This document shows, in pieces, positions 7,724 to 41,709 of a stretch of 64,000 nucleotides of DNA. How positions within the stretch are numbered: the first letter of the stretch is position 1; the number at the start of each line of letters is the position of its first letter. Source of the stretch: Methylobacter luteus IMV-B-3098 (GTDB taxonomy: Bacteria > Pseudomonadota > Gammaproteobacteria > Methylococcales > Methylomonadaceae); the NCBI RefSeq assembly GCF_000427625.1, contig NZ_KE386569.1:3466854-3530853 (forward strand). The letters run 5' to 3'. Under the pieces are notes generated by a model. It was given only the letters and a program-made list of their open reading frames with translations. It did no database searches and was not told the origin of the DNA. A program made the position numbers and the translations under genes.

Positions 7724-7734
7724 ATCGTAATTGT

Positions 7735-10400: not shown

Positions 10401-11174
10401 TGTTGGAATTAGCGTGTAAAAACCCGGATACGGAATCGTTTTATTAAACAAAAAAACCGGCAATACGATTAGGGCGAATCCGATAGCAGATCCTGCTTGA
10501 TTTATGCCGGATGAAAAAGGGATATGTTTAGCCTCTTTTTGACTGTTAAGGTAAATTGCAATAAAGGAACCAATCAGTAGCTCTCCTGCGCGGCCTCGTG
10601 TATCAAAAAATATCTTTTGAGGATCAACAGCAGACTGCAATTCTGCAAAAATAAAACTAGTCATAGCAATCAGTATAAATACTGATGGCAACCACTTTTT
10701 ATCAATTCGCCAAAAAAAAATAGTTAGAAGGGGAAAAAATAAATAATATTGCTCTTCTACAGAAAGACTCCATGTGTGTAGCAGTGGTTTTTCTTCTGCT
10801 ACATTAGCGAAGTATCCGGTATCATTCCTAAAGTAAAGATTGGATACATATAGCATGACACTGATTAAACTCTTGGAGAAATCCAGGAGCGTGTTTGGTA
10901 ACATCCATAGCCAGGCAAATGGCAAACAGACCAATATCACAAAAAACAGAGCCGGCAGAATGCGTCTGCATCTGCGTTCATAAAAAGCGATAATTGAAAA
11001 TTGTCCAGTCTTTATTTCAGAAAATATGATGGACGTAATCAAATAGCCGCTTATGACAAAAAATACATCTACGCCTACATATCCACCACTGAACCAATCA
11101 AATCCAGCATGAAAAAATATGACAGGCAGCACAGCTATAGCACGCAAGCCGTCTATTTCTTTTCTATATAACAT
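10397..11174 (-). pseudogene. OafA-like acyltransferase, 5' part, split by IS1182-type element
   Basis: This is the N-terminal part of an acyltransferase-3 membrane protein. It starts MLYRKEIDGLRAIAVLPV with the conserved His of FFHAG, then GGYVGVDVFFVISGYLIT, ERRCRRILPALF and LLHTWSLSVEEQYYLFFP. These motifs define O-acyltransferases that modify surface glycans in the inner membrane. The start is ATG at 11174. Intact sequence ends at the CTAG duplication; beyond it the frame runs into the element. The other part is at 7735-8847. As it stands the glycan modification is probably lost. Confidence 0.9.
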
Positions 11175-11259
11175 CAAAATATATGATTCCTATGTGACTC
11201 TAGCCTTATTGAATAATTCTAAGCTATCCGGCCTTCTTATATAAATTTGACTGTTTCTC

Positions 11260-12342: not shown

Positions 12343-12485
12343 TGCAAAAGGGCCTTTAATAATTTTGGTGCTTATTAATTCCAAGGATACATGCTATTTA
12401 AACAATCCATTTTTAATGCATAAAAGGCATGATGCATAAGTATTTTTTCTGCGCGTCTCGCATCACTAATTAAATTTTTTAAAAA

Positions 12486-13544: not shown

Positions 13545-13546
13545 AA

Positions 13547-14989: not shown

Positions 14990-15126
14990 TTCATATTTTT
15001 CCAGGACCGAATATAGCAGGCTTACTGCACCAATAATTCGTGTCTCAAATTAGTTGTAAACAATAAAGTAGAATCGTCTAATTCAAGAAATAGCACCAGG
15101 CAAATGGATTGAGTTATGCGTAGGCG

Positions 15127-16686: not shown

Positions 16687-16762
16687 TAGATGGCCTGCTT
16701 AGCTTGATTAATATCGTGAACCAACTTTATTAAAGGCGCATGGCGTAATAAATTTTTTAATA

Positions 16763-21402: not shown

Positions 21403-22213
21403 CGGCGAATCCTCTGCGAGTTTTCTGAAACCAAACAAATCCTCCCCATGCAATCAATATACCTATTGCTAACATGATGCCCCACTGCCCCATATCCGGT
21501 ACTTTGCCGAAAATCAGCGTGTTGCGCCCTTCTTCGATAATGAAGGTGAGAGGATTGATTTGCAGCCAGGTTTGGTAGCGAGCAGGCAGCGCGCTAATGG
21601 GATAAAACACAGGGGAAAGAAACATCAATACGGTCGTGAACATACCCGTAATTTGCCCTATATCTCGAATATATACGCCAAGCCCAGCTAAAAACCAGGC
21701 AAAGCCCATAGTGGCAAACACGAGAGGCAATAACACAAAAGGGAACAATATTGCAGTCCACACAAGCTGTTGGGTAAGAATCAGTTGCGCAACCAACAAA
21801 ACGAGCAAGCTGATGGCAGTGTGGAACAGCGCCGAGCCGAATGCCACCCATGGCAGAATTTCCAAAGGAAAGATGACTTTCTTGACGAAATTGACGTTGG
21901 AAAGAATCAATCCTGGGGCGCGGTTCAGACATTCAGCAAACAAGCCATGCACGATCATGCCGACAAAAAGCACAATGGCAAAATCGGTTTTGCTTTCCTC
22001 GCCGCCGAGTCCCCAGCGTGCTTTGAACACTACAGAAAATACAAATGTGTAAATGGTCAACATTAGGATCGGATTGAAGAGCGACCACGCCAATCCCATA
22101 ATCGAGCCGCGATAGCGTCCCACCACCTCCCGCTTGGTCAAAGCAAAGATGAGGTTCCGGTTGCGCCAGAGGCTGGCCGCCATTTCACTAGGAGATATAC
22201 GAAATTGCTGCAT
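21392..22213 (-). CDS. wzm: ABC-2 polysaccharide export permease
   Basis: 273 residues with six hydrophobic segments and the family motif LTKREVVGRYRGSIMGLAWSL near the N-terminus. It forms the membrane channel of the Wzm/Wzt exporter. The C-terminus overlaps wzt. Its first base lies against the stop of the rfbC relic (22213), suggesting that the original operon read rfb genes then wzm and wzt. Confidence 0.92.
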   Translation of the reverse strand: MQQFRISPSEMAASLWRNRNLIFALTKREVVGRYRGSIMGLAWSLFNPILMLTIYTFVFSVVFKARWGLGGEESKTDFAIVLFVGMIVHGLFAECLNRAPGLILSNVNFVKKVIFPLEILPWVAFGSALFHTAISLLVLLVAQLILTQQLVWTAILFPFVLLPLVFATMGFAWFLAGLGVYIRDIGQITGMFTTVLMFLSPVFYPISALPARYQTWLQINPLTFIIEEGRNTLIFGKVPDMGQWGIMLAIGILIAWGGFVWFQKTRRGFADVL

Positions 22214-24125: not shown

Positions 24126-25034
24126 ATGAATAAACAACTTGATGCTGTTACCTTGGTGACTGTCAATTATAACGCAGGGGATATGCTTCGGAACTGTATT
24201 CACTCTGCAGCTGATCAGGTAGGAGAAATTATTGTCGTGGATAACGCTTCTTCCGACCAAAGTTTGGCGAATTTGAGTACCCAGGATGAGTCGCAGGGAG
24301 CAGTCAGGATTATCCGGAATTCACAGAATTTGGGATTTGCCGCAGCCTGCAATATCGGAGCGAAAGCCGCTAAAGGGAGCTATTTATTGTTTCTTAATCC
24401 GGACTGTGAACTTAATCCGAATGCCATTCAAGCTATGCTGGATGTTTTTCATGAATATGCGGAGGTTGGTATGGTAGGCGGATTGCTGATTGGTCCCGAT
24501 GGCACGGAGCAGGGCGGCGGACGACGGGCTATTCCAACGCCCTGGCGGTCTTTTGTAAGAGCCTTCGGTTTGTCCCGATTTGAGCAGCGCTGGCCGAAAC
24601 TGTTCTTTGATTTCTATTTGCACAAACAGCCCTTGCCTGTTCATCCTGTCGAAATGGAGGCCATCTCCGGCGCCTGCATGTTAGTGAAGCGTGAAGCGGT
24701 TGAAGATGTCGGGCTTTGGGATGAAGGTTATTTCCTGCATTGTGAAGATCTGGACTGGTGCATGCGCTTTCGTCAGAGAGGCTGGAAAATTTTATTTGCG
24801 CCGGGTGCGCGAATAGTACATCACAAAGGCGTATGTGGCCGTTCTCGTCCCATATTTGTAGAGTGGCACAAGCATAAGGGCATGATGCGCTTTTACCGCA
24901 AGTTTTTCAGTCATCAGTACCCAGGGCCGTTGATGTGGCTGGTTGCTGCCGGGATCGGTCTGCGGTTCTGCATGTTGGCAGTTTATTTTACTGGTTGTCG
25001 TATTGTGCATCGCCTGGGGTTGTCCAATGGATAA
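24126..25034 (+). CDS. GT2 glycosyltransferase (rhamnosyltransferase-like)
   Basis: 302 residues from ATG 24126. TTG at 24117 is an alternative because GGAG lies six bases before it. GT2 landmarks are TLVTVNYNAGDMLRNCIHSA, IIVVDNASSDQS, NLGFAAACNIGAKAA, LLFLNPDCELNP (the DXD-type block) and ISGACMLVKREAVEDVGLWD with YFLHCEDLDWCMRF. The C-terminus is hydrophobic, so it is membrane-associated. It probably adds a sugar, possibly rhamnose, to a lipid-linked glycan. It overlaps the next gene by eight bases. Confidence 0.88.
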   Translation: MNKQLDAVTLVTVNYNAGDMLRNCIHSAADQVGEIIVVDNASSDQSLANLSTQDESQGAVRIIRNSQNLGFAAACNIGAKAAKGSYLLFLNPDCELNPNAIQAMLDVFHEYAEVGMVGGLLIGPDGTEQGGGRRAIPTPWRSFVRAFGLSRFEQRWPKLFFDFYLHKQPLPVHPVEMEAISGACMLVKREAVEDVGLWDEGYFLHCEDLDWCMRFRQRGWKILFAPGARIVHHKGVCGRSRPIFVEWHKHKGMMRFYRKFFSHQYPGPLMWLVAAGIGLRFCMLAVYFTGCRIVHRLGLSNG

Positions 25035-25914
25035 ACAGCAGATAGGGATTATTGGTGCGACCAGCTTTGTCGGAGAATATCTCTTAGATAGATTGGCCGG
25101 GCTGGATATTGAAATTACGGCATTTTCGCGAAAACCCCAAGAAATTAGCACTGATTGTTATACGTCAAATATAAGTTGGCGTGTTCTAGGAAAGGGCACT
25201 GATTCGTCGGGCGCGCCTTACTCTGATGAGATGCAAGCGATTGAAAACTGGATAAGCCTGGGGCCTGTCTGGGCTTTGGCTGAGCTGTTTCCGATGCTGG
25301 AAGCCTATGGTGCACGTCGTATCGTGGCCTTGAGTTCAACCAGTCGCTTTACCAAGACGGCGTCCAGGGACGAATCGGAGCAGGCACTCGCCGAGCACCT
25401 GATCAGCGGTGAGGAAAGCTTAACGACGTGGGCCGAAAAACAAGGCGTGGAATGGGTCATTATTCAGCCGACCATGATCTATGGCTATGGCAAGGACAGA
25501 AACATTGCCAGGATAGCGCGTTTTATTGAACGCTTCAGCTTTTTTCCTTTGCTTGGCAAAGCCACAGGCAAGCGGCAGCCCGTACATGTCGAGGATGTTG
25601 TTGATGCTTGTTGTTCGGCTCTTTTTTCAGGGCAAGCACTAAACCGCTCTTATATTGTGTCTGGTAAAGAGCAGTTGACTTACCGGGCAATGGTTGAGCG
25701 CATATTTTTATCGATGGGGAAAACGCCCGTTTTTTTATCACTGCCATTAGGCATGTTTCGATACGCCGTGATGTTGTTACGAATCCTGCCCAGATTCAAG
25801 TCTTTAAACGTTGAAATGGTGTCTCGCATGAATCAGGATATGATTTTTGACCATGAGGAGGCGGCACAGGATCTGGGGTTTAGGCCGAGAGGTTTTTTAA
25901 ACAATAAAGACTGA
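25027..25914 (+). CDS. NAD-dependent epimerase/dehydratase family protein
   Basis: 295 residues from ATG 25027, inside the end of the GT2 gene. It is SDR-like: QIGIIGATSFVGEYLLDRL is the dinucleotide motif, RIVALSSTSRFTK follows, and VIIQPTMIYGYGKDRNIARI is the atypical SDR loop with a Tyr. RQPVHVEDVVDACC is the conserved late block. The usual YxxxK pair is not obvious, so it may be an atypical SDR acting as reductase or as a binding protein. Its position next to glycosyltransferases suggests work on a nucleotide or lipid-linked sugar. Confidence 0.7.
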   Translation: MDKQQIGIIGATSFVGEYLLDRLAGLDIEITAFSRKPQEISTDCYTSNISWRVLGKGTDSSGAPYSDEMQAIENWISLGPVWALAELFPMLEAYGARRIVALSSTSRFTKTASRDESEQALAEHLISGEESLTTWAEKQGVEWVIIQPTMIYGYGKDRNIARIARFIERFSFFPLLGKATGKRQPVHVEDVVDACCSALFSGQALNRSYIVSGKEQLTYRAMVERIFLSMGKTPVFLSLPLGMFRYAVMLLRILPRFKSLNVEMVSRMNQDMIFDHEEAAQDLGFRPRGFLNNKD

Positions 25915-26032
25915 CAGCATATTAACAACCTATAAATCGAGGGCTTAAGCTCGACTAAGATAGTTTATCCTGCAAAATCTCGACGTAACGTATAGCCGCT
26001 ATTTTGGGCTAGGCGTAGCACCCGTCATAATT

Positions 26033-26051
26033 GAATGGATGTTATCCATTC
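26033..26051. repeat. Inverted repeat GAATGGAT-3-ATCCATTC
   Basis: A perfect 8-bp inverted repeat with a three-base centre lies in the 177-base gap before the flippase gene. No T-run follows. It could be an operator or an mRNA hairpin; nothing else decides between these. Confidence 0.4.
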
Positions 26052-26091
26052 CCTCTAAAATTCCAATCTTGACATAAAGCTGTTAGTAGCA

Positions 26092-27363
26092 ATGAAATTT
26101 ATTTTTTCCCTGGGGGGATTAGCCGCTCTGAATCTGGCTATTGCCATGGCTACCCAATGGCTGGTTCTGGTCTATATAGGTCCCGGCGCCGATACCGATG
26201 CCTATTTTTCGGCACAGGTGCTGACCTTAATTCCACTGACAATTTTGAGCGATATTCTGATCAGGGTGCTGGTGCCTTTGTTAACGGGGTTATCCAGGGA
26301 ATATTTGACCGGAACCGTAAAATCTTTGCTGCTACAGTCACTTTTAGGTTATGTTGTGATGGCGGTCATACTGGGATTATCGGCTTATTTGTGGGTTCCG
26401 CTGTTATCGCCGGGACTTTCGGGCCAGTCGCTCGACTTGACGATTGAAATGGCTGAAGTGATGTCCGTTACACTGATTTTTGGCGGGCTGACAACGGTGT
26501 TGAAATCGGCTTATCATGCCGAGCAACGTTTCATTTATCCGGAACTGTCGCAATTGATCGCCAGTATTGTCGTGCTAGTCGGCGTGTTCCATGCCATACC
26601 CGTTTATGGCATCACATCAGTCGCCTGGGGGGCTGTCATACGATGGACATTATGGACTGTGATGTTGTGCAGATGGGTCGATTGGCGGGCGCCCTCACTA
26701 TATGATCGTGCGATGGTTAAAACGGTCCGGCAACGCGCGCGCGTCCTGTTATTGGGCGCATCCATTTACAAAACCGGTCCTGTTATTGACCGTTATTTGG
26801 CTTCACTCGGTCCCGTAGGTGGTATCAGCTTGTTGACCTTCGGCAATCAGCTTTATGGGGCATTTCTGGCGATCACAGATAAAGTATTCGCCACGCCTTT
26901 GCTGTCGTTTGCGGCAAAGAATATGAAATCGGGCGATAATTCTCAGCTTTGGCGGAATTACCGGCAGAAACTGCTGCTGACCGGGGCGATGACACTGGCC
27001 GTATGGGCTTTAGTTGGTTTATGCGGGAAATGGGGGTTGAATGTGCTGGTCGGCTATGGGAAATTCGGCGCGGGACAAATCGATATGTTGTGGCAGCTCA
27101 TGACGGTGATGGGCGGCATGCTGGTTGCAGGCATGGCGGGTCAGTTGGCGAGCAATTGCCTTTATGCATTGGGCCGAACAACTGTAGTCGTCAGGCTTGC
27201 GATGATCAATTTTTTCATTTGCGCGGGTATAAAAGTGCTGGCGTTTAATGCATTGGGCATTGTCGGCATCGCAACCGGAATTGTCGCTTATCAGTTATTA
27301 AATGCTGTTGGATTACATGTCGCGCTGATGCGTGAATTAAAGCAAGTCGGTAATTTGGCCTGA
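26092..27363 (+). CDS. MurJ/MviN-like lipid flippase (Wzx-like role)
   Basis: 423 residues, almost entirely hydrophobic with about twelve membrane segments. The N-terminus LAALNLAIAMATQWLVLVYI followed by GPGADTDAYFSAQ is typical of the MurJ branch of the MOP exporter superfamily, and LVPLLTGLSRE and LKSAYHAEQRF fit too. In this cluster it more likely flips an undecaprenyl-linked glycan unit than lipid II, because it sits among glycosyltransferases and is shorter than housekeeping MurJ (about 510 residues). That role is inference. Confidence 0.75.
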   Translation: MKFIFSLGGLAALNLAIAMATQWLVLVYIGPGADTDAYFSAQVLTLIPLTILSDILIRVLVPLLTGLSREYLTGTVKSLLLQSLLGYVVMAVILGLSAYLWVPLLSPGLSGQSLDLTIEMAEVMSVTLIFGGLTTVLKSAYHAEQRFIYPELSQLIASIVVLVGVFHAIPVYGITSVAWGAVIRWTLWTVMLCRWVDWRAPSLYDRAMVKTVRQRARVLLLGASIYKTGPVIDRYLASLGPVGGISLLTFGNQLYGAFLAITDKVFATPLLSFAAKNMKSGDNSQLWRNYRQKLLLTGAMTLAVWALVGLCGKWGLNVLVGYGKFGAGQIDMLWQLMTVMGGMLVAGMAGQLASNCLYALGRTTVVVRLAMINFFICAGIKVLAFNALGIVGIATGIVAYQLLNAVGLHVALMRELKQVGNLA

Positions 27364-27394
27364 GATCGCCTGGTGAAAGGTGAGGGATTTGTCA

Positions 27395-27400
27395 TATAAT
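27395..27400 (+). promoter_or_regulatory. Promoter -10 candidate
   Basis: TATAAT lies 45 bases before the ATG at 27445. The matching -35 (GGTGAA at 27372-27377, 17-base spacer) is weak. It may give the glycosyltransferase genes from 27445 their own transcript. Confidence 0.35.
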
Positions 27401-27444
27401 GCGTTAGCTAGCGTCTATAGCGATATTAAAAAACCGGGAATTTT

Positions 27445-28116
27445 ATGATTCGTATCATTATAGGTTTCGATCAGCGAGAGGCTGTCGCATACCATACATT
27501 TTGTCAGAGTATTCTGGAAAAGGCTTCGGAGCCTGTTTCATTTACGCCATTGGCATTAAATTCTCTCAATATTTACCGGGAAACCCATACAGACGGCAGC
27601 AATACCTTTATTTATTCGCGTTTCCTTACGCCTTTTCTGTGTGATTTTCAAGGCTGGGCGATTTTTGCCGATGGTGACATGATTTGCCGCGATGATATCG
27701 CCAAATTGTGGGCATTGCGCGATGACAGTAAAGCGGTGTTATGCATCAAGCACGATTACAAAACCAAGGAACACAACAAATACCTTGGCAATAAAAATCT
27801 TGATTACCCCAGAAAAAACTGGTCCAGTCTGGTTTTGTGGAATTGTTCTCACCCTAAGCATAAAATCCTGACGCCTGAATTCGTCATGCAACAGACAGGC
27901 GCTTTCCTGCACCGCTTTACATGGCTTGACGATAATGAAATAGGCGAATTGCCCAAGGAATGGAACTGGCTGACCACCGAATACGAAGACAATTACGAGG
28001 CGAAACTGCTGCACTATACGCTCGGAACACCTTGCTTCAAGGATTACTGGGATGCTGACATGGCGGATGAGTGGCATGATTGTTTTGCTCGCACACAAGA
28101 CGGCATGCACGTATAA
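27445..28116 (+). CDS. GT8-like glycosyltransferase
   Basis: 223 residues. It starts MIRIIIGFDQREAVAYHTF, a pattern of short GT8-like transferases. The DXD metal motif is in IFADGDMICRDDI near residue 75. YETDYKTKE-like and KNWSSLVLWNC blocks follow, and LPKEWNWLTTEYED is near the C-terminus. It probably transfers a sugar in the cytoplasm to the growing glycan. The gene downstream may overlap its end depending on the start used. Confidence 0.75.
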   Translation: MIRIIIGFDQREAVAYHTFCQSILEKASEPVSFTPLALNSLNIYRETHTDGSNTFIYSRFLTPFLCDFQGWAIFADGDMICRDDIAKLWALRDDSKAVLCIKHDYKTKEHNKYLGNKNLDYPRKNWSSLVLWNCSHPKHKILTPEFVMQQTGAFLHRFTWLDDNEIGELPKEWNWLTTEYEDNYEAKLLHYTLGTPCFKDYWDADMADEWHDCFARTQDGMHV

Positions 28117-28153
28117 AAACAATCATTGCCTTGGCCTGAAACATTCGTTTAGC

Positions 28154-29314
28154 GTGACCATTCCAATTTATCATAAACTGTCCACTTTTCTGGGCCATAT
28201 ACGGCTTTTTGCAAAAAAAGAACCCGAACCCTATCATTTGTTCATCATTGATGGGCCGAATGCCATTAAAATCTCGGAATTGCTGGTCAATAGCGGTTCG
28301 TCTCTCGCGCTTAGATTCATCGCCTCGGCGCACTATCTGACCCGACTGGATAAAACGGATGCCTCGCTGGAACAGCGCATGGTTGGCTGGCAGTTAGCCA
28401 CGCTTTTTAAAGGCGCATGGCGTTATTTGCGAGCCTGCAAAAATGCGCATCAGAAAATTCCGTCTATTTCGGAACTTACAGCGTTAACCAATCGCGAATG
28501 CATAGAAAGCCACATTAAAAGCAATGTCCGGCAAATTAAGTCGGTGGTCGTCTTTAACGAACGAAACCCTTTTCCGGCATACGCGGTAGCCAGCGCCAAA
28601 AAACATGCTATCGCTACAGCCTGCATCCAGCATGGCGCGGTTGTTGAAAATTATTTTCCGGTTTACGTTGATAGTTATTTTACCTGGTCTGATTATTATT
28701 CCTGGCTTTTAGAACGGCGCGTTCCGGGACTCAAGACACGCTGCATCGGGCGTCTGGGCTACAAAATGCCTTTACCCTCACCGCGAAGCGAAAAACCCAA
28801 CAAGTTATTATTGGTGCTGCAACCTGCCGATGTCAGTATCGCCAGAGAGGAGCTTTTGTCGCATTTTCAACAAATCCTTGAGGTCTGCTACCGCTTTTTC
28901 GATACTATTACCCTGCGCCCTCATCCCAGCGACAATATTATGCCGGATATTGCCGCGTTCATAGGCAACCGCTCTTTTTCCGTTGACTCGGGACCTCTCG
29001 AGACTGCGTTGTCCCGGCATGCCATCACCCTTTCGCTTTACTCCACCGTCCTGTTTGAAGCGCCGCTGTTTGACAGCCTGCCTGTGCAATATCTTGCCAG
29101 TTATTTGTCCGTCGAACTGATGCACAGATGCGAACTGCAGGCCGAATCTCCGGAAGATCTACAAGCCATTATCAAAAGCCTGCAAGATAAAACCTATTTT
29201 GACGCCTGTCTGGAGAATGCAAAGCAATACGCCGAACAACGGATGATGGCCGGTGATAGCGCCGCCTTGTTTAGCCTACTCGAACAAAACGCAACCCCCA
29301 TGAATATGCTATGA
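28154..29314 (+). CDS. Putative glycosyltransferase, GT-B-like, uncertain start
   Basis: About 386 residues from GTG 28154. The frame is open back to 28052, but that part overlaps the previous gene and reads unlike a protein N-terminus, so I prefer 28154 although no strong ribosome site precedes it. Landmarks are VVFNERNPFPAYAVASA, ATACIQHGAVVENYFP and ITLRPHPSDNIMPD, with LSLYSTVLFEAPLFD late. The QHG and RPHPSD blocks recall capsule and teichoic polymerase-type GT-B enzymes. The exact family is not recognised. It overlaps the next gene by four bases (ATGA). Confidence 0.6.
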   Translation: MTIPIYHKLSTFLGHIRLFAKKEPEPYHLFIIDGPNAIKISELLVNSGSSLALRFIASAHYLTRLDKTDASLEQRMVGWQLATLFKGAWRYLRACKNAHQKIPSISELTALTNRECIESHIKSNVRQIKSVVVFNERNPFPAYAVASAKKHAIATACIQHGAVVENYFPVYVDSYFTWSDYYSWLLERRVPGLKTRCIGRLGYKMPLPSPRSEKPNKLLLVLQPADVSIAREELLSHFQQILEVCYRFFDTITLRPHPSDNIMPDIAAFIGNRSFSVDSGPLETALSRHAITLSLYSTVLFEAPLFDSLPVQYLASYLSVELMHRCELQAESPEDLQAIIKSLQDKTYFDACLENAKQYAEQRMMAGDSAALFSLLEQNATPMNML

Positions 29315-30225
29315 CCGAAGTCCATGTCATTCTCTCAACTTACAATGGCGAGCGTTTTTTAAAGGAACAGCTCGAATCCATTCTTGCTCAGCGCTCGGTG
29401 TCAATCAAACTCTACATACGTGATGACGGATCAAGCGATGGAACTCGGACTATATTGACGTCCTTTGCGCAAAACCATGCCCATATCGAAATAGACTATG
29501 GCGATAACATGGGTGTCATAAACAGTTTTTTTGCTTTGCTTAAGAAGATTCCGCCGGATGCCGGGTTTGTGGCTTTTGCCGACCAGGACGACATCTGGTT
29601 GCCCGACAAGCTCACCCGTGCAGTTGATCGGATAAAAAACTCGTCAGGGCCGGCCATGTACTGTTCCTGCTATAAAGCCATTGACGAAAACGGGCGTTTT
29701 CTCTGGCAATCTCAGTTGCCTGCAAAAGAGATCAGCTTCAAAAATGCCATCGTGCAAAATATCACGACAGGTTGCACAGTGGTTATAAACAAGAGCCTGT
29801 TGAGTATGCTGAAAATAAACCAGGTTAATACCAAAAATCTGGTCATGCATGATTGGTGGGTCTATCTGGTGGCCACCTGCTTCGGACAGGTCATCTACGA
29901 CCAGGAGCCTTCTATGCTGTACAGGCAGCATGGCGGCAATGTAGTCGGCGCAAAAAACGGCTTCGCTTTTTGGCTGGGCAGGATCAAACGTTTTTTTCTG
30001 AATCGGAAGAAGAACTCCAGAATTGCCCAGTCCAAGGAATTTCTTGAACGGTATAAAAGCGATCTAAGCGCCGATGACGTACACTTGCTTTCGACCTTTA
30101 TTGCTTACCGGCAAGCCGGGTTATTACAGAGAATAGGTTATGCTATTGAAACTCCGTTATACATGCAAAAAAAAACTGATAATCTCATTTTAAAACTACA
30201 GTTGATTCTAAACAGTGCATACTGA
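29311..30225 (+). CDS. GT2 glycosyltransferase, rhamnosyltransferase-like
   Basis: 304 residues. Family A landmarks are VHVILSTYNGERFLKEQLES, IRDDGSSDGT, AFADQDDIWLPDKL (DXD block) and VMHDWWVYLVATCFG with YRQHGGNVVGA. These match rhamnosyltransferases of the RfbF/RgpF-neighbour type. It would use dTDP-rhamnose from the rfb genes. An intrinsic terminator follows 10 bases after the stop. Confidence 0.88.
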   Translation: MTEVHVILSTYNGERFLKEQLESILAQRSVSIKLYIRDDGSSDGTRTILTSFAQNHAHIEIDYGDNMGVINSFFALLKKIPPDAGFVAFADQDDIWLPDKLTRAVDRIKNSSGPAMYCSCYKAIDENGRFLWQSQLPAKEISFKNAIVQNITTGCTVVINKSLLSMLKINQVNTKNLVMHDWWVYLVATCFGQVIYDQEPSMLYRQHGGNVVGAKNGFAFWLGRIKRFFLNRKKNSRIAQSKEFLERYKSDLSADDVHLLSTFIAYRQAGLLQRIGYAIETPLYMQKKTDNLILKLQLILNSAY

Positions 30226-30234
30226 CATCAGGCC

Positions 30235-30263
30235 AAACTCATCGCGGAAGGCGCGAGTTTTTT
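30235..30263 (+). terminator. Intrinsic terminator
   Basis: AAACTC-at-CGC-ggaag-GCG-c-GAGTTT followed by TTT forms a hairpin with a T-run right after the GT2 gene. It probably ends the transcript that begins upstream of 24126 or 27445. Confidence 0.65.
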
Positions 30264-30264
30264 G

Positions 30265-30290
30265 CTATCATTGAAAATCAAAAATGATAG
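30265..30290. repeat. Inverted repeat CTATCATT-10-AATGATAG
   Basis: A perfect 8-bp inverted repeat immediately follows the terminator. It has no T-run. It could be a second hairpin or a regulatory site for the gene at 30462. Confidence 0.35.
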
Positions 30291-30461
30291 GCGAATACTC
30301 CGATATGTCTTCATATATCTTGTCTTTTAAGCATAATTGTCCTGCCTGGCTGTACATGAAGCTGGACATTGAATTTAAAACTGAATTTACCGGGCTCAAA
30401 AACTAACGAGGCGGTATACTCGTCGTTTTGTTCCTAAAATTTCTGAACTATATTGCTTAAT

Positions 30462-30980
30462 ATGATCAGGCGCTTATATAACTGGATTAGATATAGAAAC
30501 AACCCCATCGGCTATTTCAGGAAGCAAGGGGTGACTTTCGGCGATAATTGCCGGTTAATCGGTAAAAATGATTTTGGTTCGGAACCTTATTTGATAACGA
30601 TAGGCAATCATGTCAGTATCACTTCCAGCACGTTTATCACTCATGACGGAGGCGTCTGGATTTTTCGTGAAAAAGCCCCTTCCATCGATATAATCAAGCC
30701 GATCAAAATAGGCAATAATGTGTTTATTGGTGCTGAGTGCTTGATTTTACCAGGTGCCACGATAGGTGATAATGTCGTCATTGGCGCAAGAAGCGTCGTC
30801 ACCAAAGATTTGCCGGCAAATGCTGTTTACGCGGGCGTTCCCGCAAGGTTTATCAAGACAGCCGAGGATTATTGGAACGGTATGCAGGCCAATATTATTC
30901 ATACAAAAGGCCTTTCTAGAGCTAAAAAAAAGGCTTTTTTAATACAACAAGCATCATTGATGAGTAAAAAACAGCTTTAG
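30462..30980 (+). CDS. Hexapeptide-repeat O-acetyltransferase
   Basis: 172 residues from ATG 30462 (TTG at 30453 is an alternative). It contains left-handed beta-helix repeats: [59 protein letters not shown] and the closing [11 protein letters not shown]. The catalytic-type His is in FITHDGG. It is the size of WbbJ/NeuO-like sugar O-acetyltransferases and would use acetyl-CoA to modify a sugar. It stands alone, with gaps of about 230 bases on both sides. Confidence 0.85.
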
Positions 30981-31207
30981 GAGTTGTAGTTGTTGAAGCG
31001 GATTCATAGCCCTATGTTTTCGATAACAGTGGCTCTTTAATGTCAAAGATTAGAATCTTGTTTTAGAATGGACCAATTTATAGACAGTCCGCAAGATATT
31101 CTTTCTATGTCTGCCCATTGATAATAGAAAGCCGATGCCCTTATTTGCGAACGCTATAAAGCGCATAAATATCCAAACTTGTGTTTCATCAGGCATGCGC
31201 CTAATAA

Positions 31208-32371
31208 ATGAGAGCTGTTTTGCATAATTTTGAGAAAGCCCCCATCTTCGTCTATGTCATTAATGTAGACTGGTATTTTGAGCTACACTGGCTCCAGCGC
31301 GCGCTTGCGACCTTGAATTCCGGGGCGGAGGTTCATCTGGTGATGGGGATGACGGATACTCGGCTGACGGACAGCTTCAGCCAATACGGGCTTGTTTGTC
31401 ATCAATGGAATATTGATCGCAAGTCTTTGAACCCCTTCTTTAATTTGAAAGGGCTAGTGGATCTTTATCAGTTGCTTAAATCCATTTCACCGGATGTAGT
31501 TCATGCCATTACCATCAAGCCTAATATTTATGTAGGATTGATTTGCCACTTACTAAAAATACCTTATTTATTAAGTATTACTGGCACCGGCATTATTTTT
31601 TCTGGCAAAGCTCTATCGACCAGATTGATAAGACCCGCTATTAGGCTGCTCTATAAGGCGTCAAAGAAAAAAGATATCAAACGCAGAATCATATTCGAAA
31701 ACAATGAGGACAGGGCATACTTCATCAATACCGGATTATGTGACAGTCACGAAGCGGTGACTATTCTTGGCGCTGGAGTGAATCCGGACATCTATGAACC
31801 AGCCGCTGAACGTGAAACCGATACGCCCATTATTTTGTTCGCGGCCCGGCTGTTATGGGATAAAGGCCTTGGCGATTTGATCGAAGCGGCAAAACGCCTG
31901 CGTAGTCAGGGCCTGAAATTTTCGATACAGGTTGCGGGTATCATCGATAATTCAACGGTTAATGCCATCGATCAACGGGTTCTGGAAGCCTGGAGCCGTG
32001 AAGGGGCAATAAAATGGCTGGGCACTGAAAAAAACATGCCCCGCTTGCTTGCGCAAGCCAATATCGTGGTATTGCCCACCTTTTATGGCGAGGGTGTGCC
32101 GCGCATTTTGATTGAGGCCGCATCTTGCGAAAGAGCGATTGTTGCGTCTGATATCCCCGGCTGTCGTGAAATAGTAAAACACGGTATTAACGGTTTGCTG
32201 GTGCCGGCCCGCGATATAGAAGCGCTGGCAGAGGCGCTTGCGCAGTTGATTCAAAATCCGGAGATCAGAAAAATGATGGGAAAACAAGGCCGAGAAATTG
32301 TCGAGCGTGACTTTTCCGAGCAGCAAGTGATTTCTGAAACACTGTCTTTATATAAAGAATTATTGCCATGA
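31208..32371 (+). CDS. GT4 glycosyltransferase
   Basis: 387 residues with GT-B fold. ILFAARLLWDKGLGDLIEAA is the donor-domain start, WLGTEKNMPRLLAQANIVVL and PTFYGEGVPRILIEAASCER contain the conserved acidic EGxPxxxxE motif, and HGINGLLVPARDIEALAEAL follows. It resembles the WbpH/WbjE-type transferases that add N-acetyl amino sugars next to WbpV, WbpL and WbpM. The stop overlaps the next ATG (ATGA). Confidence 0.88.
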   Translation: MRAVLHNFEKAPIFVYVINVDWYFELHWLQRALATLNSGAEVHLVMGMTDTRLTDSFSQYGLVCHQWNIDRKSLNPFFNLKGLVDLYQLLKSISPDVVHAITIKPNIYVGLICHLLKIPYLLSITGTGIIFSGKALSTRLIRPAIRLLYKASKKKDIKRRIIFENNEDRAYFINTGLCDSHEAVTILGAGVNPDIYEPAAERETDTPIILFAARLLWDKGLGDLIEAAKRLRSQGLKFSIQVAGIIDNSTVNAIDQRVLEAWSREGAIKWLGTEKNMPRLLAQANIVVLPTFYGEGVPRILIEAASCERAIVASDIPGCREIVKHGINGLLVPARDIEALAEALAQLIQNPEIRKMMGKQGREIVERDFSEQQVISETLSLYKELLP

Positions 32372-33318
32372 ATAAAGTGTTAGTTACGGGCGCCAATGGT
32401 TTTATAGGCAAAGCCTTGCTCGCAGAGCTTATTGCCGCCGGTTTTGATGTAAAAGGCGCAGTTCGCTCATCCGTATCCTGCACCGATCAGTCTGCTGCCA
32501 TTGTGGTTGGCGATATCAATGCCGGAACATTATGGCAGGACGCTTTGCTGGATATTGATGTCGTGGTGCATCTGGCCGCGCGCGTGCATGTCATGAAAGA
32601 AACGGTGGCTGATTCCCTACAGGCTTTTCGCGAAGTCAATGTGGCAGGGACTGAAAACCTTGCACGGCAGGCTGCGGCCAATGGCGTCAGGCGCTTTATT
32701 TATCTGAGTTCGATTAAGGTGAACGGCGACCAGACTGACAGGGCATTTTCTGCCGGCGATAATGTCACCCCTCAGGGCCCTTACGCCTTGTCCAAATGGG
32801 AAGCCGAGCAGGTACTGGGAAAAGTCAGTGCTGAAACCGGGCTGGAGATCGTGATTATCCGCCCGCCTTTGGCTTATGGGCCTGGCGTTAAAGGCAATTT
32901 TTTGCGTTTATTGAAGTTGGTCAAGTCGGGGTGCCCCTTGCCGCTGGGCAAGGTCAATAACAAGCGCAGCATGGTTAGCGTCGATAATCTATGTGATTTG
33001 ATCAAGACCTGTATTGATCATCCCAGTGCTGATGGCCAGGTCTTTCTGGTATCTGACGGCTATGATATGTCTACACTTGATCTGGTCAAAATGATGGCTA
33101 CTCATATGCGGCGATCGGTGCGATTGCTCTCGCTGCCTTTAGGCTGGTTATACGGATTAGGCAAAATAGCCGGTAAAAAGCCCGAGATAAGCCGGCTTTG
33201 TGCTTCATTGCAAGTTGATATTCAGCAAACCTGCAATAAGTTGCAATGGACACCGCCGTATTCAGTGGATGAAGAGGTAAGAAAAACGGTTGCCTGGTTT
33301 ATGGGGCAAAAGCAATAA
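32368..33318 (+). CDS. wbpV: NAD-dependent epimerase/reductase, WbpV-like
   Basis: 316 residues, extended SDR. The dinucleotide motif is KVLVTGANGFIGKALLAEL, followed by VVHLAARVHVMKE, the catalytic Ser in FIYLSSIKVNG, and YALSKWEAEQVL (YxxxK). This pattern is found in WbpV-type enzymes that make UDP-N-acetyl-fucosamine or quinovosamine from the WbpM product. It is coupled to the GT4 gene before it and ten bases from the WbpL-like gene after it. Confidence 0.8.
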   Translation: MNKVLVTGANGFIGKALLAELIAAGFDVKGAVRSSVSCTDQSAAIVVGDINAGTLWQDALLDIDVVVHLAARVHVMKETVADSLQAFREVNVAGTENLARQAAANGVRRFIYLSSIKVNGDQTDRAFSAGDNVTPQGPYALSKWEAEQVLGKVSAETGLEIVIIRPPLAYGPGVKGNFLRLLKLVKSGCPLPLGKVNNKRSMVSVDNLCDLIKTCIDHPSADGQVFLVSDGYDMSTLDLVKMMATHMRRSVRLLSLPLGWLYGLGKIAGKKPEISRLCASLQVDIQQTCNKLQWTPPYSVDEEVRKTVAWFMGQKQ

Positions 33319-33327
33319 AAGAACTGC

Positions 33328-34323
33328 ATGCTTATAATATTACTGTCAATTGGCGTATTATCGCTGTCATGGCTGAGCGTTTATTTTCTCAAGGCTTACG
33401 CACAAAATAATCTTTTGGATGTTCCAAACCAGCGCAGTTCCCATCGGATGCCGACCCCTAGAGGCGGTGGTTTGGGCATCGTTCTGGCCTTTTTCGTGGC
33501 TACTTTGATGCTGTTTCTTGGCGGAAGCATAGCTCTGACCGGTTTTCTGCCTATAATGACGAGTCTGCTGGTGGCCGGGATCGGTTTCTGGGATGATCAT
33601 CGGCACATACCGGCCCGTTGGCGTTTTTTAGTGCATATGGCAGCAGCGGGAATAGCTCTTTATATGATACAAGGGTTTCCATCTTTAGTCATAGGCGATT
33701 TACATGTGGAATTGGGTCTTTTGAGTTATGCGCTAGGCGTGGTTTATTTGGTCTGGCTGCTTAATCTGTTCAATTTTATGGATGGCATTGACGGGATCGC
33801 CGCTTCCGAAGCCATATTTATATCAGGAGCGTTGGCCGGCTTTTTGAGCTTTGTCGGTCATGAGCTTGCGCTTATCGCTTTTGCGTTGTGTTTTGCTTCA
33901 CTGGGTTTTTTATTGTGGAATTGGCCGAGGGCGAAAATTTTTATGGGCGATGTCGGCAGCGGATTTCTGGGGTTTGTATTGGGCCTGTTGATTTTAATGG
34001 CCGGCCATAGTGATCCCGTTTATGTTTATATCGGGCTGATTCTGTTCGCGGTCTTTATAACGGATGCTACTGTTACCTTGGTACGCCGTTATATTACCGG
34101 GCGGAAATGGTACGAAGCACATTGTTCTCATGCCTATCAGCAAGCCGCAAAACGATATGGTCACTTGAAAGTGATTCTGGTCGTATGGGGCATTAATTTA
34201 TGCTGGTTGTTGCCGGCCGCATCAGTTGTATTCAGATACCCGGCCTATGCGTTACCCGGATTAATAATAGCCTATTTGCCGCTGATTTATGTTACTGTTA
34301 AGTTTGAAGCAGGCAACGCATGA
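33328..34323 (+). CDS. wbpL: WbpL/WecA-family undecaprenyl-phosphate sugar-1-phosphate transferase
   Basis: 331 residues with about ten membrane segments. Landmarks are DVPNQRSSHRMPTPRGGGLG near residue 31, GFWDDHRHIPARWRF, the catalytic NLFNFMDGIDGIAA and the MGDVGSGFLGF loop. It starts glycan synthesis by transferring a sugar-1-phosphate (probably QuiNAc or FucNAc) from UDP to undecaprenyl phosphate in the inner membrane. The neighbours wbpV-like and wbpM-like supply that sugar. Confidence 0.9.
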   Translation: MLIILLSIGVLSLSWLSVYFLKAYAQNNLLDVPNQRSSHRMPTPRGGGLGIVLAFFVATLMLFLGGSIALTGFLPIMTSLLVAGIGFWDDHRHIPARWRFLVHMAAAGIALYMIQGFPSLVIGDLHVELGLLSYALGVVYLVWLLNLFNFMDGIDGIAASEAIFISGALAGFLSFVGHELALIAFALCFASLGFLLWNWPRAKIFMGDVGSGFLGFVLGLLILMAGHSDPVYVYIGLILFAVFITDATVTLVRRYITGRKWYEAHCSHAYQQAAKRYGHLKVILVVWGINLCWLLPAASVVFRYPAYALPGLIIAYLPLIYVTVKFEAGNA

Positions 34324-34376
34324 ACCAATGATAGTTTGGTATACTGCAGTGTTTTGTAAGATGTTACTTTTTCTTC

Positions 34377-36284
34377 GTGACAGGCATATCCCAATTTGTG
34401 AAATTTAAATTCCGCTCCCGCACGACTATTTTTATCCATGATCTGGCCATGGTGGCCGTGGCCTGGTTTGGCGCGTACTGGCTGCGTTTTAATTTGGATG
34501 TCATTCCCGATAGGTTTTTACAGGATATCAAGCAAGATTTGCCTTATGTCGTTGTTATCCAGGGGGGTGTTTTTTGGTTTCTAGGCTTGTATCGCGGCGT
34601 TTGGCGTTTTTCTTCCATGCCGGATTTAATCCGAATCACTAAAGCGGTTTTGATCGGCATAGGCTTGATTGCCTTGAGTTTCTTTTTGTACAACCGCCTG
34701 GACGGTGTGCCACGCGCCGCACTGCCACTGTATTTGTTCTTATTGTTGCTACTGTTGAGCGTGCCCCGCTTTTGCTATCGATTCTGGAAGGAAAATATTC
34801 TGATGGAGCGCTCAGGCAAGAGAGCCCTGATTGTCGGTGCTGGTGCGGCGGGAGAAATGCTGGTCAGGGATTTGCTGGGCAAAACCAATTCCGGCTATTT
34901 ACCGGTTGCCTTTGTCGATGATGATCGTCATAAGCGGAAAAGAGAAATTAGAGGCATTCGGGTAGTCGGCGATATCGAACAATTACCGGTATTTATAAAA
35001 AAGCTGGGCATTGAGGTGATACTGATCGCCATTCCTTCGGCGACAGATAGCCAAATGCGGCGCATCATCGAAACATGCGAGCTGTGTGAGGTGCCTTTTC
35101 AAACCTTGCCATCGGTTAAGGATTTATTGTCAGGCAGGATTTCGCGTGGCAGTTTGCGTGACGTTTCGATTGAGGATATTTTAGGCCGTGATCCGATTCA
35201 TCTGGATTGGCGACTGATTGCTGACAATCTTCACGGCAAAAGCATCATGGTGACCGGCGGAGGCGGATCGATCGGCTCGGAACTCTGTAAGCAGCTGGCC
35301 AGAGTCAATCCGGCCAAGCTGATTATTTTCGATCAGTCGGAATTTAATTTATACAAAATAGATGCCGAGTTAAGAGCGTCCCACCCTGAAATAAAGCTCA
35401 AGGCTGTTTTAGGGGATGTCGCAGACAGGTTATCGGTGCGTCATGTTATCCGAAAATTAAAGCCCGATGTTATTTTTCATGCCGCAGCTTATAAGCATGT
35501 ACCGTTACTGGAAAATCAGATACGAGAAGCTGTGCATAATAATGTCATTGGCACCAAGACGGTTGCCGAAGAGGCGATCGCGGTCGGTATTGAGCGCTTT
35601 GTCTTGATTTCCACCGATAAGGCCGTTAACCCGACCAATGTCATGGGCGCAACCAAAAGGGCGGCCGAGATACTCTGCCAAAATTTGAACAGCCGTGATG
35701 GCACGCGTTTTATGACTGTGCGCTTTGGAAACGTACTGGATTCCGCCGGTAGTGTCGTGCCTTTGTTCAGAGCGCAAATCAAAGCCGGAGGACCGGTTAC
35801 GGTGACTCATCCCGATATTACGCGTTATTTTATGACGATTCCGGAAGCCTGCCAGTTGATTATGCAGGCTGAAGTCGCCGGCAAAGGCGGTGAGGTTTTT
35901 GTCTTGGATATGGGAGAGCCTATAAAGATTGCTTATCTGGCCGAGCAAATGATTCGTTTGAGCGGCAAGCGGGTCGGCGATGATATAGAAGTTAAATTCG
36001 TAGGTTTAAGACCCGGTGAGAAACTGCACGAGGAATTATTTCATGAACATGAGCAACTCAGATCTACCGGTTATGAAAAATTATTATTGGCTAATGCGCG
36101 GTTATATGACGAAGTTTTGTGGACAACCCATATTGAGAAGCTAGTTCAGGTCTGTCAACAGGATAATGAAACTGAGATTTTGAGAGTTTTACGAAGTCTT
36201 GTGCCCGAATATCAAGATGAGTTTCCCGAATATGAAGCTAAGGGCGAGATTGCGGTGAATAATTTGATGTCGGCTAACCTGTAG
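34377..36284 (+). CDS. wbpM: WbpM/CapD-like nucleotide-sugar 4,6-dehydratase
   Basis: 635 residues starting at GTG 34377. Four N-terminal membrane segments (residues about 15-130) are followed by a CoA-binding-like Rossmann region (RALIVGAGAAGEMLVRDLLG) and the catalytic SDR domain (IMVTGGGGSIGSELCKQLAR, near 287). VFHAAAYKHVPLLE, STDKAVNPTNVMGATKR and RFGNVLDSAGSVVPLF complete it. The active Tyr of YxxxK is replaced by Met in NVMGATK, as is normal in WbpM-like large dehydratases. It makes UDP-4-keto-6-deoxy-GlcNAc. It closes the cluster. Confidence 0.92.
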   Translation: MTGISQFVKFKFRSRTTIFIHDLAMVAVAWFGAYWLRFNLDVIPDRFLQDIKQDLPYVVVIQGGVFWFLGLYRGVWRFSSMPDLIRITKAVLIGIGLIALSFFLYNRLDGVPRAALPLYLFLLLLLLSVPRFCYRFWKENILMERSGKRALIVGAGAAGEMLVRDLLGKTNSGYLPVAFVDDDRHKRKREIRGIRVVGDIEQLPVFIKKLGIEVILIAIPSATDSQMRRIIETCELCEVPFQTLPSVKDLLSGRISRGSLRDVSIEDILGRDPIHLDWRLIADNLHGKSIMVTGGGGSIGSELCKQLARVNPAKLIIFDQSEFNLYKIDAELRASHPEIKLKAVLGDVADRLSVRHVIRKLKPDVIFHAAAYKHVPLLENQIREAVHNNVIGTKTVAEEAIAVGIERFVLISTDKAVNPTNVMGATKRAAEILCQNLNSRDGTRFMTVRFGNVLDSAGSVVPLFRAQIKAGGPVTVTHPDITRYFMTIPEACQLIMQAEVAGKGGEVFVLDMGEPIKIAYLAEQMIRLSGKRVGDDIEVKFVGLRPGEKLHEELFHEHEQLRSTGYEKLLLANARLYDEVLWTTHIEKLVQVCQQDNETEILRVLRSLVPEYQDEFPEYEAKGEIAVNNLMSANL

Positions 36285-38859: not shown

Positions 38860-40671
38860 GTGATCCAAAAATTAAGAAACATTGCCATTATTGCCCACGT
38901 AGACCACGGTAAAACGACGCTGGTTGACAAGCTGCTACAACAATCAGGAACTTTCGCCGCACATGCCAAGGTTTCAGAGCGGATTATGGACTCTAATGAT
39001 CTTGAAAAAGAGCGTGGTATCACGATTTTGGCCAAGAATACTGCGCTGGACTGGAACGGTTATCACATCAATATTGTGGATACGCCGGGCCACGCAGATT
39101 TTGGTGGCGAAGTTGAGCGCGTCTTGTCGATGGTTGATTCCGTATTATTGCTGGTTGACGCCGTTGACGGACCTATGCCGCAGACACGATTCGTTACTCA
39201 AAAGGCCTTTGCCTTGGGCTTAAAGCCGATTGTGGTTATCAACAAAATTGACCGTCCTGGCGCCCGTCCTGATTGGGTGGTTGACCAAACTTTTGATCTG
39301 TTTGACCGCCTTGGTGCAACCGATGAGCAGCTGGATTTTCCGATTGTCTATGCATCGGCATTAAACGGCTATGCTGGTCTTGATCCATCGGTCACAGGTG
39401 GCGATATGACGCCTTTGTTTGAGACAATTGTTGATAAAGTCAGTCCGCCGGCCGTTGATTTAGACGGTCCTTTCCAAATGCAGGTAACTACGCTCGATTA
39501 CAACACCTATGTTGGCGTAATAGGTATTGGCCGCATCCAACGCGGCACAATTAAGCCGAATATGCCACTGGTGATCATTAATAGAGAAGGCGTTGAGCGT
39601 AAAGGCCGCATGCTGCAGGTTTTCGGCTTTCACGGGTTGGACCGCGTCGAAGTGCCCGAAGCACGTGCCGGCGATATTATCGCATTTACCGGTATTGAAA
39701 AGTTGGAAATATCCGATACGATCTGCCATCCGGATGCAGTAGAAATATTACCACCGTTAACGGTCGATGAGCCGACAGTGACGATGACTTTTCAGGTCAA
39801 TAATTCACCATTTGCCGGCAAAGAAGGCAAGTTCGTGACTTCTCGGCAGATCCGCGACCGTTTGGAAAAAGAATTGCAGCACAACGTGGCGCTAAGAGTT
39901 GAAGATACGGCTGATCCGGACAAATTTAAAGTATCCGGCCGCGGCGAGTTGCATTTATCGGTCCTGATTGAAAATATGCGTCGTGAAGGTTTTGAACTGG
40001 GCGTTTCCCGGCCTGAAGTGATTATGAAAGAAATCGACGGTGAAAAATGCGAGCCTTTCGAGATGGTCACGATTGAGGTAGAGGAGGCTCATCAAGGCAC
40101 AATCATGGAAAGAATGGGTGAGCGTAAAGGCGACTTGCTGAACATGGTGCCCGATGGCAAAGGTCGTATTCGTCTGGAATATATGATTCCGTCACGCGGG
40201 TTAATCGGTTTTCAAACCGAATTTATGACCGCTACATCAGGTTCAGGTCTGTTGTACCACGTGTTTGATCACTACGGTCCAGTGAAAAAAGGCGAACTGG
40301 GCACACGCAAACGAGGCGTGATGGTTTCCATGGTGCAGGGTAAGGCGTTGGCTTATGCATTGTTTGCTTTGCAGGAGCGTGGCGAGTTGTTCCTGGTTCA
40401 TGCCGATGAAGTGTATGAAGGAATGTTGGTAGGCATACATTCACGCGCCAATGATTTAGTTGTCAACCCGACCAAAGCTAAACAGCTAACGAATATTCGC
40501 GCTGCCGGTACAGACGAAAACTTGATTTTAACAGCGATTCAAAAAATGACTTTAGAGCAAGCTCTGGAGTTTATTGGTGAGGATGAACTGGTAGAAGTGA
40601 CGCCAAAATCAATCCGCTTGAGGAAGAAGCATTTAACTGAGAACGAGCGTAAACGTGCTGCTAAAGGCTAA
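38860..40671 (+). CDS. typA: Translational GTPase TypA/BipA
   Basis: 603 residues from GTG 38860 (E. coli about 607). G1 is [15 protein letters not shown] (12-26), the switch is [14 protein letters not shown]3 is [15 protein letters not shown] and G4 is [10 protein letters not shown]. Domains like EF-G III and V follow, and the C-terminal BipA domain ends [15 protein letters not shown]. It binds the ribosome and helps subunit assembly at low temperature. The 160 bases before it have no clear promoter. Confidence 0.97.
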
Positions 40672-40684
40672 GCAATGTATAAGC

Positions 40685-40720
40685 GATACAGGTGGCAGGG
40701 AGGTCCCTGCCACCTGTATC
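40685..40720. repeat. Perfect 16-bp hairpin after typA
   Basis: GATACAGGTGGCAGGG and CCCTGCCACCTGTATC flank an AGGT loop 13 bases after the typA stop. No T-run follows on either strand, so it is more likely an mRNA 3'-end stabiliser than an intrinsic terminator. Confidence 0.6.
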
Positions 40721-40769: not shown

Positions 40770-40803
40770 AAAAAAGCCCCAGGGCACTAAAGTGCGCTGG
40801 GGC
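40770..40803 (-). terminator. Intrinsic terminator of the Rsm-like RNA
   Basis: Leftward, GCCCCAGCGCACT and AGTGCCCTGGGGC form a 13-bp stem with one mismatch (40803-40791 and 40788-40776), followed by six T at 40775-40770. The T-run exists only on the minus strand. Confidence 0.8.
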
Positions 40804-40893
40804 CTAAAATCGCCAGCTTGGTTGGCTTAGTTCCATCCTTGGCAACATCCTATTGAAAAGTCCTTGAAATCCTTATCCTGTTTGGCGATGTAA
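40770..40893 (-). ncRNA. RsmY/RsmZ/CsrB-like regulatory RNA
   Basis: About 120 nt on the minus strand. Six GGA motifs lie between 40878 and 40832, in contexts such as ACAGGAT, TAAGGAT, CAAGGAC, ATAGGAT and CAAGGATGGA, as in RNAs that titrate CsrA/RsmA. ATCGCC at the 5' end (40889-40884) pairs with GGCGAT (40814-40809) and closes the whole repeat region, followed at once by the terminator. A GacA-box-like palindrome lies 50-75 bases upstream. Length, motif density and architecture match Pseudomonas and Legionella RsmY/Z. It sits alone between typA and hisB, both rightward. Confidence 0.75.
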
Positions 40894-40944
40894 CTATTCT
40901 CTCAAAAAGTTCCAAGAAAAAAAGCCGGCTAAGGCGGAAATTGT

Positions 40945-40962
40945 TGTAAGCAAAAGATTACG
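40945..40962 (-). promoter_or_regulatory. GacA-box-like palindrome
   Basis: On the plus strand TGTAAG-CAAAAG-ATTACG; read leftward it is CGTAAT-N6-CTTACA, compared with TGTAAG-N6-CTTACA known for GacA upstream sites (10 of 12). A second, less regular half-site pair (TGTAAG at 40981 and CTTCA at 40992) lies just upstream. The distance to the inferred RNA start fits activation by a GacA-type response regulator. Confidence 0.55.
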
Positions 40963-41115: not shown

Positions 41116-41709
41116 ATGAATCAACGCACTGCCGAAGTAGAGCGCAATACGCTTGAAACTCAAATTAATATTAAAATTAACCTGGATGGATCGGGAAAAG
41201 CCTCATTTCTAACCGGAATACCTTTTCTTGAGCATATGCTGGATCAGGTTGCCAGACATGGATTGATCGACATCGAAATCGATGCCAAAGGTGACTTGGA
41301 AATTGATGATCATCATACGGTGGAAGATATCGGGATTACATTGGGCCAAGCCTTTGCTGCAGCTATCGGCGATAAAAAAGGCATTTATCGTTACGGGCAT
41401 GCCTATGTGCCTCTGGATGAAGCATTGTCCAGAGTGGTGATTGATTTTTCAGGTCGTCCAGGCCTGTTTTACGAAGTGAAATTCCCGAAGGCCATGATCG
41501 GCAGTTTTGATGTGGATTTGTTCCGCGAATTTTTCCAAGGGTTTGTCAATCATGCCGGCGTTACGCTTCACATTGATAATTTGAAGGGCGCTAACGCTCA
41601 TCATATTGCAGAAACGATCTTCAAAGCCATGGGGCGGGCAATACGCATGGCCATCGCCGCCGACCCAAGAATGGCTGGCATGATGCCTTCAACCAAAGGC
41701 AGCCTTTAA
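41116..41709 (+). CDS. hisB: Imidazoleglycerol-phosphate dehydratase
   Basis: 197 residues, the monofunctional form without a histidinol-phosphatase domain. Metal-binding motifs are [24 protein letters not shown] and [17 protein letters not shown]. It catalyses the sixth step of histidine synthesis. It begins the run hisB-hisH-hisA-hisF-hisI-hisE, which is followed by tatABC. Confidence 0.97.

Follow-up and report, generated by a model that had tools for sequence, protein, structure and literature searches.

Judged by sequence comparison, the gap between typA and hisB of Methylobacter luteus IMV-B-3098 holds a real, conserved small-RNA gene, and this gene very probably represents a new, unannotated family of CsrA-titrating RNAs of the RsmX/Y/Z-CsrB type in Methylococcales, controlled by the Gac system. 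The gene was analysed in a window of 64,000 nucleotides, the whole stretch of DNA that was examined, and coordinates are those of the window unless another locus is named. It is a compact gene that is read leftward on the minus strand, from 40962 to 40770. The original prediction, which was made from the letters of the window, had described it as an RsmY/RsmZ-like RNA with two rightward neighbours, typA and hisB, and had listed six GGA motifs in about 47 nt of the minus strand, a closing stem ATCGCC/GGCGAT, a 13-bp terminator with T6 on that strand only, and a box, CGTAAT-N6-CTTACA, upstream of the RNA. All of these elements are present at the places where they had been noted. Here, we describe the parts of the gene, follow them through 39 homologous loci, and weigh the role of the RNA as a CsrA sponge against other explanations.

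Architecture of the predicted RNA gene

The RNA gene is flanked by two protein-coding genes of the plus strand, whose identity is confirmed by Pfam. The first, typA/bipA (38860..40671; BipA_C and GTP_EFTU), converges on the RNA gene, and the second, hisB (41116..41709; IGPD), diverges from it. The elements of the RNA gene, all on the minus strand, start with a palindrome that resembles the GacA/UvrY box, CGTAAT-N6-CTTACA (40945..40962), which has 2 mismatches in 12 positions to TGTAAG-N6-CTTACA. The box is followed by a conserved, T-rich linker that runs towards the -10 element; it reads TTAGCCGGCTTTTTTTC here (40916..40932) and CTTTAACCGGCTTTTTTT in several relatives, as seen by eye in the upstream regions of 39 homologues. 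An extended -10 element, TGA-GAGAAT (40896..40904), was assigned by eye, and many of the 39 upstream regions show a TGn-(G/C)AnAAT-like element at the corresponding position. Transcription would start near 40890, and the predicted small RNA of about 120 nt would span 40770..40890, as deduced from the sequence, the fold and the alignment of homologues. Neither the promoter nor the terminator of this gene was picked up by an automatic scan for sigma-70 promoters and terminators.

The closing stem of the RNA, P1, is made of a 5' arm AUCGCC (40884..40889) and a 3' arm GGCGAU (40809..40814), which are supported by their pairing over 38 distinct sequences. The cluster of six GGA motifs (40832..40878), which are candidate CsrA sites, has GGA starts at 40878, 40872, 40863, 40850, 40838 and 40834. 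Comparison of homologues places two of the motifs in hairpin loops, one in P2, CAAU[AGGAU]GUUG (40843..40855), and one in the mini-hairpin P3, CCA[AGGA]UGG (40833..40842), for which the support is weaker. Homologue comparison also defines a conserved motif, GCCAACCAAGC (40816..40826), that is unpaired in the model. The last element is the intrinsic terminator (40770..40805), composed of a 13-pair stem and T6, which was recognised from the fold and from double changes. The GGA cluster is the single place in the 64-kb window, both strands searched, with six GGA inside 60 nt, and among 5000 dinucleotide-shuffled versions of the typA-hisB gap a single one reached six GGA in 50 nt.

When the window's RNA is folded, the minimum-energy structure contains both the closing stem AUCGCC/GGCGAU and the 13-pair terminator stem followed by T6. 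On the plus strand, the terminator stem is followed by CTAAAATCG, so that there is no T run, and the strand-specific terminator of the original prediction is confirmed. The folding energy of the window RNA is modestly better than that of shuffled sequences (z of -1.9 and -2.2), and six copies folded singly gave z from -1.7 to -3.4. Hairpins P2 and P3 are absent from the minimum-energy fold of the window's own RNA, and P2 is found, by reading, in the minimum-energy fold of one of the six copies (L017); therefore, both hairpins rest on comparison. No ATG reading frame is conserved across the 39 copies, in which the longest frame per copy has at most 25 codons and these frames are mostly unalike.

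An inverted repeat with two 18-base arms and no spacer (40685-40720) lies between the typA stop and the terminator of the small RNA. No second copy of it is present in the window when up to 3 mismatches are allowed, and it may serve as the terminator of typA or be a mobile palindrome.

Distribution, covariation and conservation

When 201 family genomes were searched at the DNA level, 28 gave a match; five of the weakest matches (L024 and L026-L029) were judged by reading to be chance and were dropped, while L025 was retained. An alignment of 23 copies, A1, on which the structure was drawn after the alignment had been inspected, was used to build the covariance model R1. This model gave a match at E<=0.01 in 55 of 237 family genomes and a match in 7 of 274 genomes of the class, where only one locus outside the family, L094, was gene-like. 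The refined model, R2, matched 47 of the 237 family genomes at E<=1e-3, and 42 family genomes, which belong to 9 of 29 genera, reached at least 48 bits. This count of 42 excludes G164, G199 and G047, with 33-41 bits by R2, and second matches in G002 and G065. Two of the five R2 genomes beyond the 42 (L105 and L108) were read as terminators, and the same was concluded for the weak matches under about 43 bits (L095-L102, L104, L105, L108, L110 and L111), which have 0-2 GGA. One copy of the RNA gene was found per genome; in the window's genome, the next model matches, of 30 and 21.5 bits, were considered as a second copy and read as terminators.

For comparative work we used a second alignment, A2, of 39 chosen loci (38 distinct rows), from which duplicates and presumed terminators were left out; it does not represent all 42 genomes, and L042 and L087 look like one contig met twice. 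Thirty-eight of these loci adjoin typA and/or hisB (both genes at 21 loci, typA only at 5, hisB only at 12), and every neighbour found is encoded on the other strand from the RNA. The sole locus with neither gene is L094, from another family of the class, which combines a GGA-rich body with a TGTAAG-N6-CCTACG box and the motif AATGCCAACCGAGC. The L094 copy, at 1501-1624, is flanked on one side by a small basic frame that is S20-like and on the other by one that resembles a sensor kinase, both recognised by eye.

Named genomes were also scanned with a pattern, which gave 22 records, and 13 of these are true copies by reading. They comprise ten Methylobacter records, including M. tundripaludum (with strain SV96, locus L061), M. 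marinus A45 and Candidatus Methylobacter oryzae, one Methylomonas MAG, one Gammaproteobacteria MAG and one record labelled Methylophaga. The record labelled Methylophaga (L059, 3091-3216) has the same typA-RNA-hisB locus, and its label may perhaps come from a mis-assigned metagenome bin. The nine other records, from Terracidiphilus, Granulicella, Paenibacillus and Cohnella, were dropped, as the rest of the gene is absent from them.

The paired structure is supported by both alignments. In A1, 92.8% of the cells are paired and 41 cells show double changes, compared with 12.1 in shuffles, none of 500 of which was as high, and with 6-15 in slid controls; further pair types, at 27 compared with 25.3 (124 of 500 shuffles), were no better than shuffled. 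In A2, whose rows were fitted to the model and are biased in favour of the model structure, 93.1% of the cells are paired and 98 show double changes, compared with 26.5 in shuffles (0 of 500 as high) and 5-23 in slid controls. The shuffles used for these pair statistics do not preserve relatedness. Stem P1 has 98.2% of its cells paired over the 38 distinct sequences, and two of its pairs change from C-G to U-A in 8 and 4 sequences, respectively; the closing stem that had been read from one sequence thus has compensatory changes among homologues. Hairpin P2, with the consensus CAAY[AGGAN]GUUG, has double changes at all 4 of its pairs and 92.4% of its cells paired in A2. With 81.5% of cells paired in A2, P3 is weaker than P2. 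Furthermore, 8 of the 11 modelled pairs of the terminator show double changes in A2. A pairing of GUUG with the CAAC of the 3' motif was considered by eye and rejected, since P2 keeps its pairing through changes that break this alternative.

The box taken alone is not significant: the window has 11 sites at up to 3 mismatches compared with 19.9 expected, and the genome has 78 sites at up to 2 mismatches compared with 113 for the reversed control pattern. It gains weight because it stands at one fixed position in the homologues: it begins 71-72 bases ahead of the model start, and 30 of the 39 have no more than 3 mismatches in its 12 positions. The mean best mismatch at the fixed offset is 3.08, compared with 6.76 (sd 0.86) over all offsets in the 39 homologues. 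Nine copies have no box of up to 3 mismatches at this place: in L017, L019 and L021 the best site is off position, L090 has 6 mismatches, and L020, L023, L025, L107 and L109 have 4-5. The box of the original prediction, weak by itself, is in this way supported as a putative regulator site by its fixed position. Two better boxes in the genome, a perfect one at C1:3262678 and a one-mismatch one at C1:2473044, were inspected by eye and have no comparable GGA cluster within 300 bases.

At least 4 GGA motifs are present in 30 of the 39 homologues. The count goes down to 2 in L020 and L084 and to 0 in L109, all three from genus g19, and these copies keep the box, the closing stem and the terminator despite having few or no GGA. 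All three copies are syntenic, the one of L109 being at 1439-1543. The original prediction had made its fate depend in part on conservation of the GGA motifs and the terminator between species; these are conserved in most copies, and this one syntenic copy departs from the rule in having no GGA. Because several GGA motifs are reported, in a part of PMC2375449, to be necessary for sequestration, the low-GGA copies of genus g19 may not titrate CsrA. In this genus, the RNA is either losing its part in CsrA control or has some other role besides it.

A predicted Gac-Csr switch and competing explanations

A single csrA, which passes all cut-offs, is present in the genome and follows an aspartate-kinase-like frame, as seen by eye. 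Residues 1-48 of this CsrA are identical to those of the solved CsrA chains 2bti, 1y00 and 5z38, and for this reason its recognition of GGA should be the same as in solved CsrA. The best GacA/UvrY-type candidate scores 252 bits, below the curated cut-off of 280, and the next one 162; the best GacS/BarA-type candidate scores 459 bits, below the curated cut-off of 890, and the next one 316. Among the 237 family genomes, 194 have csrA and about 42 have the RNA. Of the 42 RNA-bearing genomes, 37 have csrA, and the other five are assemblies of 90% completeness or less. Since most of the relatives with csrA have no recognisable RNA, the co-occurrence of the two is uninformative.

From these features we infer transcription of the RNA, its binding and titration of CsrA, and its control by GacA. 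In the mechanism that we propose, a phosphorylated regulator of the GacA/UvrY type, with GacS/BarA as its kinase, would bind the palindrome, whose start lies about 72 bases upstream, and would thereby switch on the extended -10 promoter and leftward transcription. Within the loop that P1 closes, the resulting RNA of about 120 nt would expose several GGA motifs, of which two sit in the loops of small hairpins. It would bind several CsrA dimers, remove CsrA from the leaders of mRNAs, and change the translation of those mRNAs.

The motif GCCAACCAAGC appears to point to something beyond GGA, as it is unpaired in the model and is yet found with no more than 2 mismatches in at least 31 of the 39 homologues (RNA positions 51-105 were scanned, and short copies may be missed). 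This conservation would suit a structured RNA whose main activity is base pairing, by way of GCCAACCAAGC or of other unpaired regions, with CsrA binding secondary or lost in places, and so would L109, which still has the promoter and the stem with no GGA. In four genomes of the genus, the complement, GCTTGGTTGG, also has 34 occurrences, of which 4 are the RNA gene itself, compared with 16 for the reversed control; in the window's genome there are 6 places, one of them the RNA gene itself, and the control has 2. None of the 30 places that were read, out of the 34, could be seen to lie in a conserved leader. However, among these 30 the non-self GCTTGGTTGG sites that are shared between genomes form three groups that are coding-like by eye and do not involve the window's genome, and most copies keep the GGA motifs and the GGA-loop hairpin, which makes an RNA acting mainly by base pairing quite unlikely. 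The two activities could be combined in a dual-function RNA, whose GGA part titrates CsrA and whose GCCAACCAAGC arm pairs with other RNAs or binds a different partner; the GGA part would then be eroding in genus g19, with the promoter, closing stem and terminator retained, turning a sponge to another regulatory role under the same GacA switch. We consider this proposal unlikely.

The box could also belong to the other side of the gap, as it is a palindrome and lies 153 bp ahead of the start of hisB. The box and promoter elements would then serve hisB, rightward, and the leftward RNA would be incidental. This is very improbable given that the distance from the box to the start of the leftward RNA is fixed, whereas the distance to hisB varies from 147 to 771 bp among loci. 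In addition, typA but no hisB was found alongside the RNA at five loci, L094 has the RNA and the box with neither gene, and the RNA body and the terminator covary. We find it hardly credible that a GGA-rich stretch came to lie ahead of an ordinary terminator by chance; the weak model matches elsewhere, where read, are indeed terminators, but conservation, covariation and the fixed position of the box extend over 39 loci.

As a Gac-controlled RNA that titrates CsrA, which is the reading we prefer, the gene gives the aerobic methane-oxidising gammaproteobacteria a concrete predicted Gac-Csr switch with named parts. It makes testable the control by CsrA of carbon flow, surface polysaccharide or secondary products in methanotrophs, which limit methane release and have industrial use. 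The alignment of homologues could also seed a new Rfam family. A polysaccharide cluster lies 4.5-16 kb from the RNA gene, and the control of nearby polysaccharide genes by this RNA, which had been suggested earlier, is a speculation prompted by their proximity. Polysaccharide-type genes occupy 24943-36281 and 5532-21453 of the window and encode glycosyltransferases, a MurJ-like flippase, epimerases and Polysacc_synt_2. A UDP-GlcNAc 2-epimerase, a Wzt-type ABC transporter and an acyltransferase are also found in these regions, with a transposase at 8931-10280.

Comparison with known Csr and Rsm RNAs

A check against the Rfam models of CsrB, RsmY and RsmZ had been suggested, and no Rsm or Csr model matches the locus. 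Over the window, Rfam (4227 families) gave only a tRNA at gathering score. Over the gap, it gave eight weak matches at E<=10, none of them Csr/Rsm and the best one on the terminator, and over 20 homologue loci it gave no Csr/Rsm match at E<=0.5 and one weak unrelated match. The PrrB_RsmZ model (RF00166, gathering score 44 bits) has 5 matches in the whole genome, the best at 25 bits and none at the locus; the three of these five that were read are all ends of reading frames with terminators, as judged by eye. The best match (L120, G000:C1:1227280-1227401, minus strand, 25 bits) is at the 3' end of a reading frame, where about four GGA precede a terminator by eye, and it is a possible 3'-UTR-derived RNA.

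Among the matches listed in the open-access full-text literature, a scope in which subscription papers are mostly not covered, there was no Csr/Rsm small RNA in methanotrophs. By term search, PMC11072679 contains no 'Gac', 'CsrA' or 'Rsm', PMC10992012 no 'CsrA', and PMC5568370 no 'Methylo'. Since a machine-learning predictor of such RNAs exists, as described in a part of PMC5568370, earlier predictions of this RNA in supplements or web tools are possible.

Several features of the CsrA-titrating class are found in the sequence, namely several GGA motifs, some of them in hairpin loops, a GacA/UvrY-like box, and a csrA gene in the genome. A further feature of the class, a stand-alone non-coding RNA with an intrinsic terminator, is predicted from the sequence only. 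The RsmY/RsmZ-like design appears to hold, as the GGA hairpin, the box and the terminator survive the comparative tests.

In Pseudomonas aeruginosa, the GacA site is reported to be 75 bp upstream in the case of rsmY and 196 bp upstream in that of rsmZ, and the consensus is TGTAAG-N6-CTTACA (PMC4950607; also PMC4682653). For SS101, PMC4353343 gives predicted sizes of 118 bp for rsmY and 133 bp for rsmZ, both of which have eight GGA, three of them in loops. The methanotroph RNA is like the Pseudomonas RsmX/Y/Z RNAs in its length of about 120 nt, its multiple GGA motifs, some in hairpin loops, and its box of the TGTAAG-N6-CTTACA type. Pseudomonas RsmY and RsmZ end in an intrinsic terminator, as does the predicted RNA described here. 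Unlike the Pseudomonas Rsm RNAs, the methanotroph RNA has no Rfam Rsm match, adjoins typA/hisB, and has a closing stem around the GGA region together with the conserved GCCAACCAAGC. One copy was found per methanotroph genome, compared with two or more in Pseudomonas.

The RNA would share with enterobacterial CsrB and CsrC the logic of CsrA titration and a box of the UvrY consensus type. CsrB and CsrC are much longer and have many more sites than the methanotroph RNA. The UvrY consensus is given as TGTAAGNNNNNNCTTACA in a part of PMC4682653, where crosslinking places the UvrY site upstream of csrB at -222 to -142, further upstream than the box of the methanotroph RNA.
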